Shown piece by piece: positions 37,822 to 46,317 of a DNA stretch of 56,452 nucleotides. A model generated the notes under the pieces. It worked only from the letters and a program-made list of their open reading frames with translations. It had not been told where the DNA came from and ran no database searches. The stretch's first letter is position 1. Each line of letters starts with the position of its first letter. The position numbers and the translations under genes are program-made. This DNA is from Spirochaetia bacterium (GTDB lineage Bacteria > Spirochaetota > UBA4802 > UBA5550): positions 1-56,452 of the forward strand of contig VFJS01000076.1 of NCBI GenBank assembly GCA_009885955.1, given 5' to 3'.

Positions 37822-38979
37822 TCATTTTACAATTGAAAGACCGTCATGGAGATATTTCTTCTCCCTGAAATATACTTCTCCAAGGCCCGAGGCTATGTAG
37901 CATCCGCCGCCGATCCTGACATTATCGGGAACGCGGCAGTTTTTCCCGATTACCGTAATGCTTGAAAAAAGGGATCTCGGAAAATCGCTGCTTTTTATAT
38001 TCAGGTCATCAGACCCTATCCTGCTTGAATTGCCGATGTTTATCATGGAATTTTCGTCATTGAAATCGGTGGTTTCATCGATAACGGCTTTATTGATTTT
38101 CACCCCTTCCCCGATTCTTACAAAGGGCAGGATGATTGAATCCCGTATGTCGCTATCAAGGCCTATCTCCACACCCGGGTAAATGATTGAGTTCTCCACC
38201 CTGCCGTTAATTGAGCAGTAGTCGGATATGAAGGAATTTACTATGCGGCCTTTTTCTCCTATGTACGCATACCGGTCAGCCACTATCTGGCTTTTCATGC
38301 TGTTGTCGCTGTATATGAGATTAAACAGTTCCCGGTCCCATAAAATATTTCTGCTCAGAGCATAATATTCGGGAACATTGCTGATCGGCCAGTAATGCGC
38401 ATGGAATGCCGTCTTCCTGATGCCTGCGTTGATCATGGTATTGATTATCATTTCGAATATATTGGAAGATGATCTCTTTTCCTTTATTATTTTTCCGATT
38501 GTTTTCAGCAGGGTTTTCCTGGATGTGACAAGGAGCTTGTATGCCATTGAAGGCCTGCCGTTTATTACCATCTTGAAAAGAAGTGTGTCTGTCTTTTTTG
38601 ACATGTACGTTTTCATGATGTCAGAAAAATCGATTATTGAAGGGAAATCGCCGTTATAAATTATGAAATATTTTGAATCAATATCATGAACCAGATTTTT
38701 ACAAAAATTAATATTTGAGAATTCGCTGGTTATTACGCTAATTGGTGAATAGGCGCCATTGGAATTAATATAGGAATCTATATAGTTTTCAAGATCGTCT
38801 TCAACATTATTATAGATAACAGTGCTTTTTGATTCAGACACGTGGGCGTTCCTTATAAGAAAATCAATCACCCTGAATCTGCCTCCAAAGGGGAGCATGT
38901 ACCGGGATCGCGATTCAGTTAATGAGAGAAGCAGGTTATCCCTTGGCGATGGATAGGATATAATTGTCCAGTCATTCAT
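37822..38979 (-). CDS. GlgC/GlgD-like nucleotidyltransferase homologue without the catalytic loop
   Basis: 385 residues. The N-terminal half matches the ADP-glucose pyrophosphorylase fold: RSRYMLPFGGRFRVIDFLIRNA is the equivalent of the GlgC PFGGxYRxIDFxLSN motif. But the N-terminal GGxGTRLxPLT nucleotide-binding loop is absent and the chain starts just before that position (MNDWTIISYPSPRDNLL). The C-terminal half is a left-handed beta-helix of hexapeptide repeats (IGEKGRIVNSFISDYCSINGRVENSIIYPGVEIG...), as in GlgC. This is the architecture of GlgD, the non-catalytic regulatory subunit in Gram-positive glycogen synthesis. It is the last gene of the SbcD/SbcC-like operon, 6 bp after the TPR gene; a role in glycogen is not supported by neighbours. 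Confidence 0.75.
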   Translation of the reverse strand: MNDWTIISYPSPRDNLLLSLTESRSRYMLPFGGRFRVIDFLIRNAHVSESKSTVIYNNVEDDLENYIDSYINSNGAYSPISVITSEFSNINFCKNLVHDIDSKYFIIYNGDFPSIIDFSDIMKTYMSKKTDTLLFKMVINGRPSMAYKLLVTSRKTLLKTIGKIIKEKRSSSNIFEMIINTMINAGIRKTAFHAHYWPISNVPEYYALSRNILWDRELFNLIYSDNSMKSQIVADRYAYIGEKGRIVNSFISDYCSINGRVENSIIYPGVEIGLDSDIRDSIILPFVRIGEGVKINKAVIDETTDFNDENSMINIGNSSRIGSDDLNIKSSDFPRSLFSSITVIGKNCRVPDNVRIGGGCYIASGLGEVYFREKKYLHDGLSIVK

Positions 38980-38985
38980 TAAAAC

Positions 38986-39966
38986 TTACCCCTTTTTCTT
39001 CAAATATTCCTCAAGCCTGGGCCCGTCAATTTCCATGAGCCTCTTCTTTATTTCGATGAGGTTTTCCTTGTTATAATTCTGAAGCTCATAATAATCAAGG
39101 AGCCAGAGGTACATGTTCAGCAGCCTGGGAATAACATTTGAATTTGCCTTTAAATCGTAGTCCATCTTCTGATATATCCTGTCGAGTTTTACGATGTCCT
39201 TCTTGATATTTTCCACCTGGTGCTTATCCATATTTTTCCTGACATAGAACGTATCAGTGATAAAACCATACACGGGTATCCACTCCCTTATATCATTTTG
39301 AATATTCTTTTCTCCCCTGATTATTTCAATGAGATCCAGTACTGGTTTTGCCTTGATTATCCTGAGATCAATTTCCGACGGGTTTTTAAAAAAGGCTTCT
39401 CGAAAACAGAGGAGGCTGTTGGGGAAATCTTTTAGATGATAAAATGCTTCTCCAAGGATGGACAGGAGCCGGCCATTGCTGGTATAGGAACCGCGGGCGT
39501 ATTCCAGGGTCTCGATGGTATTTTTATATTCCTCCAGCCTTAAAAAACAATCCCCCAGATTAAGAAGGAGATCAAAATTATTATTTGTGTCCTCCTGTTT
39601 TTTAAATGCTGTCTTATAATGCTCGGCCGCATTAAAAAAAATAAAACGCATTACAGCCCTGTATGCAGTTGAAAGGGCCATGTCGTTGGTGCCGGCATAT
39701 TCATCGAAAACACCCCATTCCTTCATGAGGAAGTCGGCGGTATTTTTACCCTCCGGGATGCTCCGTATCTCCCGTTCCCTGTTCAGCCAGAATTTAGAAG
39801 TTCTGTAGCAGTCCGTTAATCCGGGATAATCGGGATTGATGGCCATCAGGCTGTCGAGAATCTCAACACATTTTCTGAAATCCCCCTCTTCAATCAGTTC
39901 ATAGACTTCGTTTATTGCATTAAGAATCGGATCATCTGAAAATGTTAATTGACCGCTGTTATCCAT
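38986..39966 (-). CDS. TPR-repeat protein
   Basis: 326 residues, no signal peptide. It has helical repeats with TPR spacing, for example around 25-65 (EVYELIEEGDFRKCVEILDSLMAINPDYPGLTDCY), 120-150 (AAEHYKTAFKKQEDTNNNFDLLLNLGDCFLRLEEYKNTIETLEYA) and 165-195 (LSILGEAFYHLKDFPNSLLCFREAFFKNPSE). It probably is a scaffold. It lies 6 bp downstream of the SbcC-like ATPase and 6 bp upstream of the GlgD-like gene, so it belongs to that module and may link its parts. The C-terminus is Lys/Glu-rich helical and ends KKG. Confidence 0.8.
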   Translation of the reverse strand: MDNSGQLTFSDDPILNAINEVYELIEEGDFRKCVEILDSLMAINPDYPGLTDCYRTSKFWLNREREIRSIPEGKNTADFLMKEWGVFDEYAGTNDMALSTAYRAVMRFIFFNAAEHYKTAFKKQEDTNNNFDLLLNLGDCFLRLEEYKNTIETLEYARGSYTSNGRLLSILGEAFYHLKDFPNSLLCFREAFFKNPSEIDLRIIKAKPVLDLIEIIRGEKNIQNDIREWIPVYGFITDTFYVRKNMDKHQVENIKKDIVKLDRIYQKMDYDLKANSNVIPRLLNMYLWLLDYYELQNYNKENLIEIKKRLMEIDGPRLEEYLKKKG

Positions 39967-39972
39967 GTGTAA

Positions 39973-42114
39973 TCACAGTTCTATGTAATTCCCCCATTCT
40001 TTTATGTCCCGGTGGTGGGTGAACAATATAACCTGCCTTTTATGAGATACATCAGAAATTAATTCCCGGAACCTCTTGATTCTGTCATCATCCATTGAAT
40101 GAAAGGGATCGTCAATGATTAATGGCAAGCATTTTTCATAATCACTGAAAAATTCAGTCAGTGCAATTTTGATTGATATAAGCAATGCCTGAAGAACTAC
40201 CGGGCTCAGGCCCTTCCCGTCATTTTTCCCGGTAATAATGTTTCTCACCATCTCCCTGTCTGCTATTGATACATACTGCTTATCAGTTAAAAAATTCAGC
40301 TTATCATAGGCGGAATCGATAAGCCGGGAAAGCTGTTTCTCCTCTGCTTTTTTTACCGCTTCATCCATGACTTCCCTGATGAAATCGACGGACCTGCCCG
40401 TTTTATTTAAACTGCTCAATATCCTGTCGAAATTGGATTTTTCAGTAATAAGGCCGTCTCTCTCTTCATTCACATCTATATTCCGGTTCAGTTCAACATC
40501 TATCTGATCCAGTATGCTGATCTTTATCTCAAGCTGTTTTTCAATTACCCTGATTTCGCTCTCACTTTTTGCTATCAATTCCTTCATGTTGGATTTATCA
40601 AGACCTATTTCATTGCCGATATCCAGGGAATGTATGTAGGCATCAATCCTGGCCTTTATTTCAAAATCGAGCTTTTTGATTACGCTCAGCTCCTTTTTTA
40701 TTATTCCCAAATCTTTCTGGTTTTTAAGAGATTCTCTTATGCTCCGTATATCCTCAATCCTTTCAGAATACTGAATGTAGTCCTCGAAATACTGAAGCAG
40801 GAATTCATAAAGTTCGCTTAACTTATACCCCTCAAGGTGAAGGTTGCTCTCTTCAAGAATTTTTTTAAGTTTTTCCTCCAGTTCCTGCTTCTCTTCATTC
40901 AGCAGGGAAAATTTTTTAGTCCCCGATGTTGTCATGGAATAGAGCGCAGTCAGCAGAGAAAAAATCAGTGAAAATCCGAATATGCCTGTAACAATGGTGA
41001 TATTTTCACTGATGGAAAAATTATTTTTATAAAATATTGACAGGATAATGGCAAAGGCCGAAACATTCACTGACAGTCCGGCTTTCTTTATCAAGTCCTT
41101 CCGCCTCTCCAATTTCGAATTAAAATTGTCAATTTTTTCGTTGAGGCTCCTTATTTCATTATAGATTCTCTGGAGATGGGAAAGATAATCGTTATTTATA
41201 TTTTTAAAATCTTTGAACTGGGGAAAATAAGTCTCAACTTCATTTTTTAATTCTGATATGGAATTGATCTTTTTCTTTTCAATTTCAACCTCTTCAGTAA
41301 TCCGGATATAATTCTTCTGATAATCATCGATAATATCAAGGCTGTCAAAAATCTTGTAAAGGATTTCAATCCTGTTATTCAGGAGGGTTGTTTTTATTTT
41401 AAAATTTTCTATTTCCCTCCATACCGAAGCCCTCTCTTTTTTCAGCTTCCCCTGCCGGGCATTCTGGATGTCGATCAGCTGAATTTTCCTGTCCAGGGAT
41501 TTTGTGAGGTTTTCATATTTTAGAATTTCTGAAAGGATCCTGTTATCGGACCGGTTCCCCTTCTCAAAAAAATTCCTCAATGATATATGCCTGTCAAAAA
41601 AATTAGATTCATCACGAAGAATTATCTTCTGAAAGCCCTGGTAATCAATATGCCTGGTTTTATCAAAATCTGATTGTGAAGAGATAAATGAAGCAGAAAT
41701 GAACTGTGAGAAGTCCACATGATGCATAAAAGCAGACAGGCAGGGATCTTCTTTTATCATGTCAATACTGATTGGCATAATCCCGGGAGTGATTTCATTT
41801 TGGTAGATGATATGTTCCCTGCTGCTTCCGGAAAAAATTGTAAAGTCCCTGAGGCAGTTATTGATAAAATGATAGGGTCTGTCTTTTCCGATATTAAAAT
41901 GAACATCGATGTACAGGCTGCTCCAGAATTCACGGGGCAGCAGATGAGTATCACTGAATCTGAACCATATGCTGTCAACAAGCCCATTGGCTAAAATGCT
42001 CTTACCGGCGCCATTTTTGCCTGAGATTATATTTATCTTATCACTGAACTCAAAGGTTATGTTGTTAAATAATCCAGGCCTGGATACTATGCATTTGATA
42101 TATTGCACAGCCAA
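39973..42114 (-). CDS. SbcC/YhaN-like SMC-type ATPase with a membrane hairpin
   Basis: 713 residues. Walker A SGKNGAGKS at 31-39 in the ABC-ATPase N-terminal half. There is a long coiled coil (about 185-345) with, at its middle, two closely spaced hydrophobic segments (about 346-362 and 372-393: VNVSAFAIILSIF and ITIVTGIFGFSLIFSLLTALY). Then come a second coiled coil, a weak signature loop GLSPVVLQALLIS and a Walker B LIIDDPFHSMDDDRI followed by QVILFTHH. The membrane hairpin in the coil is typical of YhaN, the ATPase partner of the nuclease YhaO. It overlaps the SbcD-like gene by 28 bp and precedes TPR and GlgD-like genes. The DNA-end processing role is inferred from the fold. Confidence 0.82.
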   Translation of the reverse strand: MAVQYIKCIVSRPGLFNNITFEFSDKINIISGKNGAGKSILANGLVDSIWFRFSDTHLLPREFWSSLYIDVHFNIGKDRPYHFINNCLRDFTIFSGSSREHIIYQNEITPGIMPISIDMIKEDPCLSAFMHHVDFSQFISASFISSQSDFDKTRHIDYQGFQKIILRDESNFFDRHISLRNFFEKGNRSDNRILSEILKYENLTKSLDRKIQLIDIQNARQGKLKKERASVWREIENFKIKTTLLNNRIEILYKIFDSLDIIDDYQKNYIRITEEVEIEKKKINSISELKNEVETYFPQFKDFKNINNDYLSHLQRIYNEIRSLNEKIDNFNSKLERRKDLIKKAGLSVNVSAFAIILSIFYKNNFSISENITIVTGIFGFSLIFSLLTALYSMTTSGTKKFSLLNEEKQELEEKLKKILEESNLHLEGYKLSELYEFLLQYFEDYIQYSERIEDIRSIRESLKNQKDLGIIKKELSVIKKLDFEIKARIDAYIHSLDIGNEIGLDKSNMKELIAKSESEIRVIEKQLEIKISILDQIDVELNRNIDVNEERDGLITEKSNFDRILSSLNKTGRSVDFIREVMDEAVKKAEEKQLSRLIDSAYDKLNFLTDKQYVSIADREMVRNIITGKNDGKGLSPVVLQALLISIKIALTEFFSDYEKCLPLIIDDPFHSMDDDRIKRFRELISDVSHKRQVILFTHHRDIKEWGNYIEL

Positions 42115-43217
42115 TCCTCCATGGAAGCAAAATCGTCGCCGGCAAGTACATTCAGGGATAGGGAGAGGTCATCAATATTCAAATCTCCCGGTATGGTTTT
42201 GTTATCGAGCTTTTCCTTGATTAATCGGTAAAATTCACCGCGGATGGTATTCTCACCTGAATACCTGTTTACAAGAAGGACAACCGAAGGGATGGTGTTA
42301 TCGGTAATAATAAGATCATGAAAAAATTTTCTGCACTCATCAAGCAGCAGATCATCAGGAATAAAATGTTTAATACCTGTCAAGGATAACAACAGTATGG
42401 TCTTCCCCGATTTTTTTTCACTCAACGTTCGAATGAGTTCTCCGGGAGCGGAAATGTTAGAACAGTCAATCTCCAATGAATGTATACTAATTGAATTAAC
42501 ACAGAGCCTTCGTAAATTAATAATTTTATCATCAGCTACAGATATGGAAACAACATACCGGTCTCCATGTTCATTGAAACCGGTTGCCTCGGGAGATCCG
42601 GGATATATGCCGATAATCTTATTCATCACCTTGAACATTTTAAAATTATGCTTCCGGCCAAGGGCATAAAAATCGAGGCCCGATATCGTCCTTTCAACGG
42701 GATTTCCCGGGGATGGTTCAAGCCTTATGTTTTTAAAATCGCAATCCGTGTGAAAAAGCCCCATGTGAAAACCGGTTCCCGGCTCTTTTTTTACCGATAG
42801 TATATCAAAATCTCCGGTTGCAGGCATTCCATAAACAATGAGCCGTTGATTGTTGATGGTAAATTCCAAGTGCTCCTGTTTCCCGGGGTTTGAAAAGGTA
42901 TTGCCGGTATTGATTTCACTGACGAGCGGTAGTAAATTCCCGTTGTCATCCATTTCGGAAATCCCTGGAGAGAACAGTATAACCCTGTTCTTTCTACGCA
43001 GCTCTTCAAAATCCTTATTAATAGTATTCAGCATGTCTCTGTCCAAATTTCTGCCGTCAACAAGATCACCTGCTATCATTAAAAAATCGTGGTCCCCGGC
43101 CAGGCTGACTATTTTCTTAAAAGTATTTAATCTGATTTTGTCGGAAAGTTTCAGACTTTCATCCCTGTTGCCCAGATGAATATCCGAAGTAATCAAAATT
43201 TTAATTTCATTTCCCAT
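42087..43217 (-). CDS. SbcD/YhaO-like metallophosphoesterase homologue with degenerate motifs
   Basis: 376 residues from the ATG at 43215-43217; the longer frame begins with a TTG. Motif I is intact (ILITSDIHLG, D-x-H), motif II GDLVDGRN is intact (GDxxD), but motif III, normally GNHD, reads SPGISEM. A His is present in LFHTDCD; the last motif GHxH is GRKH. Two metal-ligand positions (Asn and His of GNHD) are therefore missing by sequence. In the YhaO/SbcD families this protein is the nuclease partner of the following ATPase, and the 28-bp overlap supports a complex here. Loss of the metal site suggests a scaffold or regulatory role, or a different metal-binding solution. Confidence 0.78.
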   Translation of the reverse strand: MGNEIKILITSDIHLGNRDESLKLSDKIRLNTFKKIVSLAGDHDFLMIAGDLVDGRNLDRDMLNTINKDFEELRRKNRVILFSPGISEMDDNGNLLPLVSEINTGNTFSNPGKQEHLEFTINNQRLIVYGMPATGDFDILSVKKEPGTGFHMGLFHTDCDFKNIRLEPSPGNPVERTISGLDFYALGRKHNFKMFKVMNKIIGIYPGSPEATGFNEHGDRYVVSISVADDKIINLRRLCVNSISIHSLEIDCSNISAPGELIRTLSEKKSGKTILLLSLTGIKHFIPDDLLLDECRKFFHDLIITDNTIPSVVLLVNRYSGENTIRGEFYRLIKEKLDNKTIPGDLNIDDLSLSLNVLAGDDFASMEDWLCNISNA

Positions 43218-43283
43218 TTTTATCTGCAACTAAAAGTCGATTTGAAGAACTGCTCTATTATTTTCGTATAATACAGGGCAATA

Positions 43284-44845: not shown

Positions 44846-46180
44846 CTACGGCTTATCATATTTTTTTCTCATCTCCTGGGAAGCGAGGTTGATAATAAAC
44901 ATATCAAGCAGTACCATTGCCACAAAAGCCTCGCATACAGGCCATACCCTTGAAACGATTGTCGGGTCACGCCTGGTGACAGCCGAGAGTAGGGCATCGG
45001 TCATCGATACCTTGTCTATGGTCTTCTGGTCCCTGGCAATCGTGGGGGTTGGTTTTATTGCAAGCTTCACAATAATGTCCTGGCCCGTGGTCAGTCCCCC
45101 CGTGATTCCGCCGCTGTCATTTTTATTAAAGACAACCTTGCCGTCTTTTATATACATCTGGTCATTGCACTGGCTTCCGGTCATGTCCTTTACCTTCATG
45201 CCGGCGCCGATTTCAACAGCCTTCACAGTCCCTATGCTGAGCATCCTCCCCAGTTCACCGTCGAGCTTGGAGAATACCGGTTCGCCGATGCCGGCGGGAA
45301 GCCCTGTTGCAACAACCTCGACGACACCTCCGCTTGAATCACCCTGGTCGCGTATCTTCAGAATTTTTTCATGCATGGCCCTGGCAGATTCCAGGTGAGG
45401 GCAGTTCAGGATATGATGAACTCCTTTTTCCGCGAGCGCGTCAATGTCCCTGGCATCAACCTCCTTAGGCTTAATGCCGGGCACCATCTTTTCAATTTCA
45501 GCAAGCACTGCCATCTTCTCAAAAAAACGCATCCCCTGCTTTATTCTCCCCTCTTTGTACACAAGGGTATACACGGGATCATTTTCTCTTCTGTATTCCT
45601 TGAAATCATCAACCCTCTTTTTTATGGTTTTATAATCCACCTCGGGCATCGCAATACCGGCCGCCTCCTTTACAAAGGAGAATACATCTATCCCGTGATC
45701 CTTCAATATTCTTTTTGCCACGGTACCTGCTGCGACAATCGTTGAAGTATAACGCCCGCTGAAAATCCCCGCGCCTATTGAATCGTCCCACTGCCCGTAT
45801 TTCTGATATGAAGCATAGGAAGCATGGCCCGGCCTGGGAGTGCGGTTTGTCACCCGGTACTGTTCAATATGTTCAAAGTGCCTGTCCATGTTGGGAATCA
45901 GTATAACCATGGGCGTTCCGTTTGTATACCCTTCATTTTTAAAGCCTGTCATGGTATCGGCTGCATTGACTCCATTAAATATGACAGGGATGTCAGGCTC
46001 ACGCCTTGGTGACGAGAGTTCTCCCTGCCCCGGCTTCCTCTGAAGCAGGTCGGAATAGATTTCATCCTCCCGTATCAATATACCCGACGGAACCCCCTGA
46101 ATATGTGTTGTCAATCCTTCCTGGTAGGACCCGCCTGCAACGGTAACCTGAAAAAAACGGCCATAACTGCATCCTATCAT
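44846..46180 (-). CDS. aroC: Chorismate synthase homologue with altered active site
   Basis: 444 residues from the ATG at 46178-46180, chosen for AGGAG 8 bases upstream; the longer frame lacks one. The overall fold is AroC: GVPSGI, SSPRREPD, RPGHASYASYQKYG (second conserved His retained), GVVEVVATGLPAGIGEPVFSKLD, NDSGGITGGLTTG and IKPTPTI. Three signatures of active AroC are changed: FGESHG is AGGSYQ (His replaced by Tyr), RSSARETA is RYTSTIVAAG, and GRHDPC is TRRDPT. It is also longer than most AroC (350-390) through an insertion around residues 170-270. It could be a divergent but active enzyme or a repurposed paralogue. It heads the run with ribF and ogt. Confidence 0.8.
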   Translation of the reverse strand: MIGCSYGRFFQVTVAGGSYQEGLTTHIQGVPSGILIREDEIYSDLLQRKPGQGELSSPRREPDIPVIFNGVNAADTMTGFKNEGYTNGTPMVILIPNMDRHFEHIEQYRVTNRTPRPGHASYASYQKYGQWDDSIGAGIFSGRYTSTIVAAGTVAKRILKDHGIDVFSFVKEAAGIAMPEVDYKTIKKRVDDFKEYRRENDPVYTLVYKEGRIKQGMRFFEKMAVLAEIEKMVPGIKPKEVDARDIDALAEKGVHHILNCPHLESARAMHEKILKIRDQGDSSGGVVEVVATGLPAGIGEPVFSKLDGELGRMLSIGTVKAVEIGAGMKVKDMTGSQCNDQMYIKDGKVVFNKNDSGGITGGLTTGQDIIVKLAIKPTPTIARDQKTIDKVSMTDALLSAVTRRDPTIVSRVWPVCEAFVAMVLLDMFIINLASQEMRKKYDKP

Positions 46181-46317
46181 TGATAAACTCCTGTTGATAA
46201 TTGAAATTATATTTTTGGCATTATTAAAAAATTTTTGATATATAAATTTAATTTCATTAAATTTCATGTCAAGTTATATTAGATAGTATTTAAATTGTCC
46301 TTGATTTTTTTATCAGG

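Follow-up and report, generated by a model that had tools for sequence, protein, structure and literature searches.

A conserved operon of degenerate Mre11-like and Rad50-like proteins with a TPR protein in an uncultured order of Spirochaetota

The window analysed here is a stretch of 56,452 nucleotides (contig VFJS01000076.1, positions 1 to 56,452) from the 4.77-Mb, 117-contig assembly GCA_009885955.1 of a Spirochaetia bacterium. Its ORF list contains four co-directional genes on the minus strand, spanning 37822-43229 (Table 1), which encode, in 5' to 3' order, a metallophosphoesterase (MPE), an ATPase, a TPR protein and a GlgD-like protein. The MPE and ATPase ORFs overlap by 28 bp, and gaps of exactly 6 bp separate the ATPase gene from the TPR gene and the TPR gene from the GlgD-like gene, as reported in a preliminary description of this DNA. 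The MPE start codon is TTG; the in-frame ATG at 43217 is where that description ended the gene. The same-strand genes ogt, ribF and aroC lie upstream of the operon and a convergent cupin gene lies downstream. The chorismate synthase ORF (44846-46267, 473 aa) is matched in two stretches by a model of ~350 positions, which points to extra sequence at the N-terminus and to an insert within the protein.

Table 1. Genes and motifs of the operon in window coordinates.
Feature	Position	Strand	Remarks
MPE, degenerate Mre11/SbcD/YhaO-like metallophosphoesterase	42087..43229	-	380 aa; ORF, profiles, AlphaFold/Foldseek
MPE motif I DIH (D16, H18), retained	43176..43184	-	D16 in 36/36, H18 in 32/36
MPE motif III PGISE replacing PGNHD	42954..42968	-	metal-bridging Asn and catalytic His gone; N-H pair 0/36
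MPE motif V GRKH replacing GHxH	42648..42659	-	first His lost here, second kept
ATPase, Rad50/YhaN-like ABC-type, coiled coil and predicted membrane hairpin	39973..42114	-	713 aa, TTG start; overlaps MPE by 28 bp
ATPase Walker A GKNGAGKS, retained	41998..42021	-	sequence/alignment
ATPase hydrophobic segment 1, residues 344-362, coiled-coil tip	41029..41085	-	hydropathy, model
ATPase hydrophobic segment 2, residues 372-390, coiled-coil tip	40945..41001	-	hydropathy, model
ABC-signature site: LSPVV replacing LSxGxxxQ	40195..40209	-	LSxG 0/37 in the order
ATPase Walker B LIIDDPF, retained	40102..40122	-	alignment
TPR protein, putative adaptor	38986..39966	-	326 aa; most conserved triad member; ORF, profile, homologue searches
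GlgD-like pseudo-nucleotidyltransferase, left-handed beta-helix	37822..38979	-	385 aa; lineage-limited triad neighbour
SYPSPRDNLL at the place of the GlgC GGxGxRL nucleotide loop	38929..38958	-	GlgD-like N-terminus

As a single sequence, the MPE matches Metallophos (E 3e-6) and the SbcD model (E 7e-6, under its cut-off), and in a profile search it matches Mre11 and SbcD chains (E about 1e-9). The best Foldseek matches to its AlphaFold model (pLDDT 85) are Mre11 structures (E about 1e-13). Motifs were counted in an alignment of 36 distinct MPEs of the order. The DxH and GD motifs are kept in the window MPE. The lack of GNHD had been pointed out before and extends well beyond the window: the Asn-His pair is absent from all 36 MPEs, its place being taken by variable residues followed by a near-invariant Glu (34/36). 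In the GHxH motif the first His is present in 14/36 and gone in 22/36, and the second is present in 34/36. I90 and R192 stand for Asn and His in the window MPE, the sequence of which, lacking two of the seven metal ligands plus the catalytic His, does not hold a complete two-metal site. D16, H18, D55, H160 and H194 survive; judging from these residues, one metal may still be bound, and another hydrolytic activity may be possible. A remodelled but active enzyme, in which one metal is held by the Glu of PGxxE together with the surviving ligands and the substrate is a different phosphoester, is quite improbable, however. It would account for the conservation of D16 (36/36), E92 (34/36), H194 (34/36) and the motif IV His, H160 (26/36), but the metal-bridging Asn and the catalytic His are gone everywhere, the first His of GHxH is gone in 22/36, D55 and H18 vary in some members, and the ABC signature of the ATPase is gone everywhere as well.

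The ATPase matches Rad50 in a profile search (E 1e-24), and its model (pLDDT 81) retrieves Rad50 and Lamassu LmuB with Foldseek. AAA_27 (PF13514) is matched by the order member L066 and the relatives L181 and L182, and not by the window ATPase. The ABC signature LSxG is absent from 37/37 ATPases of the order. This second loss escaped the preliminary description. The Walker A Lys is kept in 31/37 and the Walker B Asp in 29/37; Walker A/B are lost in a single clade of seven sequences of family f1 (tree support 100/100). The zinc hook of Rad50 sits where its coiled coil turns; the window ATPase has two hydrophobic segments at that place, and YhaN has a hydrophobic hairpin in its coiled coil. No CxxC is found at the coiled-coil apex of the window ATPase; the hydrophobic hairpin is there instead, in keeping with the membrane hairpin proposed earlier. 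From hydropathy, the hairpin is predicted in nearly all ATPases of the order, P-loop-less ones included, with just one segment passing the threshold in two members.

The TPR, ATPase and MPE genes are each found in 42/46 genomes of the order, counting strong matches only. The MPE-ATPase-TPR arrangement is kept in 32/32 loci with all three genes on the contig (about 30 distinct loci, as L132/L063 and L131/L180 are each the same place from two sources). Because it recurs in every locus with all three genes visible, it is not due to chance, and the linkage is a property of the order rather than of this strain. The MPE and ATPase genes overlap by 4-163 bp across these loci (ORF starts unrefined), and the spacing from ATPase to TPR ranges from -25 to +14 bp, with one locus at 105 bp. 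The flanking genes vary, falling into several unrelated clusters. The named relatives are all MAGs of uncultured 'Spirochaetes/Spirochaetota bacterium', such as RBG_13_51_14, HGW-Spirochaetae-5, UBA5550 and ADurb.Bin218. The data for the order consist of MAGs, yet the motif losses recur across many independent assemblies. In family f1, two genomes with a completeness rating of 94% (G004 and G009) have none of the three triad genes and keep the GlgD-like gene, reflecting either loss or an assembly gap.

That the operon serves in anti-phage defence, as a system of the Lamassu class or another SMC-like class, is barely credible. The window ATPase does have a PADLOC match to LmuB (E 9e-12) besides the Foldseek matches; like LmuB it is Rad50-like, and the profile match, although weak, is full-length. 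However, the matches to Rad50 are stronger, the ATPase has a predicted membrane hairpin, and no effector gene lies alongside: LmuA and LmuC were sought beside the window operon and not found, the neighbours being metabolic and variable between loci. The operon is moreover fixed in 42/46 genomes rather than patchy, and defence was rejected on the grounds of this order-wide retention.

The GlgD-like gene has a different distribution from that of a fixed subunit. The preliminary description had grouped all four genes as a unit with the GlgD-like protein built in; the MPE-ATPase-TPR triad stands as the core of that unit, whereas the fourth gene joins it only in some genera. It is strongly matched in 42/46 genomes of the order, yet adjoins the triad only in g1 (the window), g2, g10, g11 and g12, all of one family. 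In g8 it lies 5 kb from the triad, and elsewhere it is on other contigs or far off. Thus, the GlgD-like protein is probably a neighbour and not a subunit of the triad. A complex of all four proteins that links sugar-nucleotide sensing to the ATPase is very unlikely: the 6-bp gap in the window and the adjacency in g2, g10, g11 and g12 are compatible with it, as is the lack of an obvious GlgC partner, but in the majority of the order's genomes the gene and the triad are both present without being linked, and in the linked genera other than the window's the intergenic gaps are 73-304 bp. As a general unit it was rejected, the linkage being lineage-limited. In other families of the order (L166, L167, L169, L172 and L173) the gene after the GlgD-like one encodes a protein of ~530-566 aa whose start (AEVAVIPYKVENPS...) is signal-like; in several of them clpB comes next.

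The absence of a nucleotide loop from the GlgD-like protein, also claimed earlier, is confirmed, as the N-terminal GGxGxRL is missing. Firmicutes GlgD, an inactive modulatory subunit of ADP-glucose pyrophosphorylase, likewise has the pyrophosphorylase/LbH fold without a catalytic nucleotide loop. A GlgD without activity is not new, that of Firmicutes lacking it (PMC9093745). However, the window protein falls far under the TIGR02092 cut-off (88.4 against 236.6 bits), its gene neighbourhoods are different, and no GlgC over the curated cut-off was found in the 20 genomes of the family, its own included. Membership in a normal GlgC pair was therefore rejected. Free-standing GlgA over the cut-off is found in only 2/20 of the family genomes; a GlgA-like domain is located inside a ~1,620-aa open frame in nearly all of them (contig C70:128831-130429 in the window's own genome), and given this fusion alpha-glucan synthesis is conceivable.

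The nearest relatives of the MPE-ATPase pair (L181-L183), from two other spirochaete families, keep GNHD, GHFH and LSCGAEEQ. Their ATPase has the length and the hairpin seen in the order, but in these loci the pair has no TPR gene beside it. The simplest reading of the sequences is that GNHD and LSxG were both lost in the ancestor of the order and that the P-loop was lost once, later, in seven f1 genomes. Selection in the P-loop-less clade was estimated from its closest pair, G016/G017, using the Nei-Gojobori method. In this one genome pair dN/dS is about 0.11 for the MPE (0.026/0.227), about 0.17 for the ATPase (0.033/0.189) and about 0.01 for the TPR protein (0.003/0.241). The triad proteins are maintained by purifying selection and are not decaying, and the exceptional constraint on the TPR protein suggests a further partner. 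The earlier proposal that the nuclease fold has become non-catalytic gains support from this selection together with the loss of Asn and His (36/36) and of the ABC signature (37/37).

Compared with known systems, the triad shares with Mre11-Rad50/SbcCD the two-gene MPE-ATPase arrangement, the Mre11 and Rad50 folds (Foldseek, profiles), the helices that follow the capping region at the C-terminus of the MPE and, in most members, Walker A/B. It differs in the order-wide absence of GNHD and the ABC signature, in having a predicted membrane hairpin rather than a zinc hook, and in the TPR gene in third place. With the YhaO-YhaN (AAA_27) pairs and the relatives L181-L183 it shares a 715-aa ATPase with an apical hydrophobic hairpin and the MPE upstream. 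However, L181-L183 have GNHD, GHFH and LSCGAEEQ and no adjacent TPR gene, and it is the MPEs of the order that have lost the catalytic pair.

The assignment of the third gene to the TPR proteins is borne out by a profile search, which gives strong Pfam matches where the single sequence gives weak ones. At E 1e-3 this protein has matches in 343 of the 393 genomes sampled across the phylum, the weakest matches possibly being other TPR proteins. Outside the order, in 23/25 loci, the TPR gene lies beside the gene for a ~900-aa TPR-GreA protein or a homologue of its N-terminal part, a link absent from the preliminary description; in three of the 23 (L084, L090 and L093) 0.5-1 kb separates the two. 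In L077, inferred to be Borrelia, the ORFs give the gene order recA-greA-TPR-TPR-hisS; the adjacency is at L077:6272-9949, and the neighbour is a 901-aa TPR-GreA protein with the GreA N and C domains at its C-terminus. The BB0133-like TPR protein of Borrelia and most spirochaetes is homologous to the TPR protein of the order over its full length (roughly 21-31% identity, usually with one clear copy per genome). However, its gene is a neighbour of long greA, whereas in the order the gene has left greA and follows the MPE-ATPase pair. Inside the order the TPR gene adjoins long greA in 0/14 loci checked, and long GreA is present, unlinked to it, in at least 40/46 genomes. The TPR tree groups the copies of the order, with one long-branch outsider, and is poorly resolved. 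Literature searches (BB0133; YhaN plus metallophosphoesterase; spirochaete GreA; YhaO-YhaN) gave, among the papers listed, none that assigns a function. In five loci (L071, L074, L075, L080 and L087, within L071-L096) the similarity of the neighbour to TPR-GreA is confined to the N-terminal part of that protein, and some of these neighbours are truncated by contig ends. A conserved ~880-aa gene downstream of the TPR gene in several families was considered as GreA and rejected, as it reads, by eye, as valyl-tRNA synthetase.

The reading somewhat favoured here is that the triad is a scaffold of three proteins, derived from YhaON/Mre11-Rad50, non-nucleolytic and anchored in the membrane, with the TPR protein as adaptor. 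The proposal is built on the fixed operon, the folds, the hairpin by hydropathy, the order-wide motif losses and purifying selection. The MPE, ATPase and TPR protein would bind one another. A pair of Rad50-like ATPase subunits would rest on the inner membrane through the transmembrane hairpin at their coiled-coil tips. Like Mre11, the MPE would sit at the base of the ATPase, but it would not cut, and the TPR protein would provide the connection to a client. Such a complex would no longer cut, nor would it go through the usual ABC cycle of ATP hydrolysis. In most genomes the binding of ATP may persist and act as a structural switch, and it would be dispensable in the P-loop-less clade. As for its job in the cell, we infer only that the complex would serve as a membrane tether, either for DNA or for a client of the TPR protein related to transcription. 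The more specific version is improbable: a doubly dead Mre11-Rad50 complex would fasten the transcription elongation machinery or the nucleoid of spirochaetes to the membrane by means of a TPR adaptor with ancestral ties to TPR-GreA.

Less likely than the scaffold, although not far-fetched, is that the TPR protein is primarily a transcription-linked adaptor of long TPR-GreA throughout the phylum, captured in the order by the MPE-ATPase operon. The main role of the degenerate pair would then be to localise or regulate, at the membrane, a unit of TPR-GreA (RNA polymerase). Such a role agrees with the adjacency in 23/25 loci outside the order, Borrelia recA-greA-TPR included, with the persistence of unlinked long GreA, and with a dN/dS far tighter for the TPR protein than for its operon partners, as if there were another essential partner. 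However, the adjacency is gone in all 14 loci checked in the order, and the literature search found no report of contact between the TPR protein and GreA. The link to transcription elongation is thus a lead and not a result. It would nevertheless make an unstudied TPR protein, found in most of the phylum and beside a giant GreA in Borrelia and most sampled lineages, a candidate transcription-linked adaptor. Under the scaffold reading, both catalytic halves were apparently lost in one ancestor, and the operon was kept order-wide under purifying selection. If so, the order provides a natural test of the roles of Mre11-Rad50-type complexes apart from DNA cutting.

Also in favour of the scaffold reading, the window's own genome carries a second MPE-ATPase pair (L203:4085-7656, contig C99) with SDTHLG, GD, AGNHS, H, GHWH and an intact P-loop. 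As DxH, GNH and GHxH are intact in this pair, the nuclease function is covered elsewhere in the same genome.
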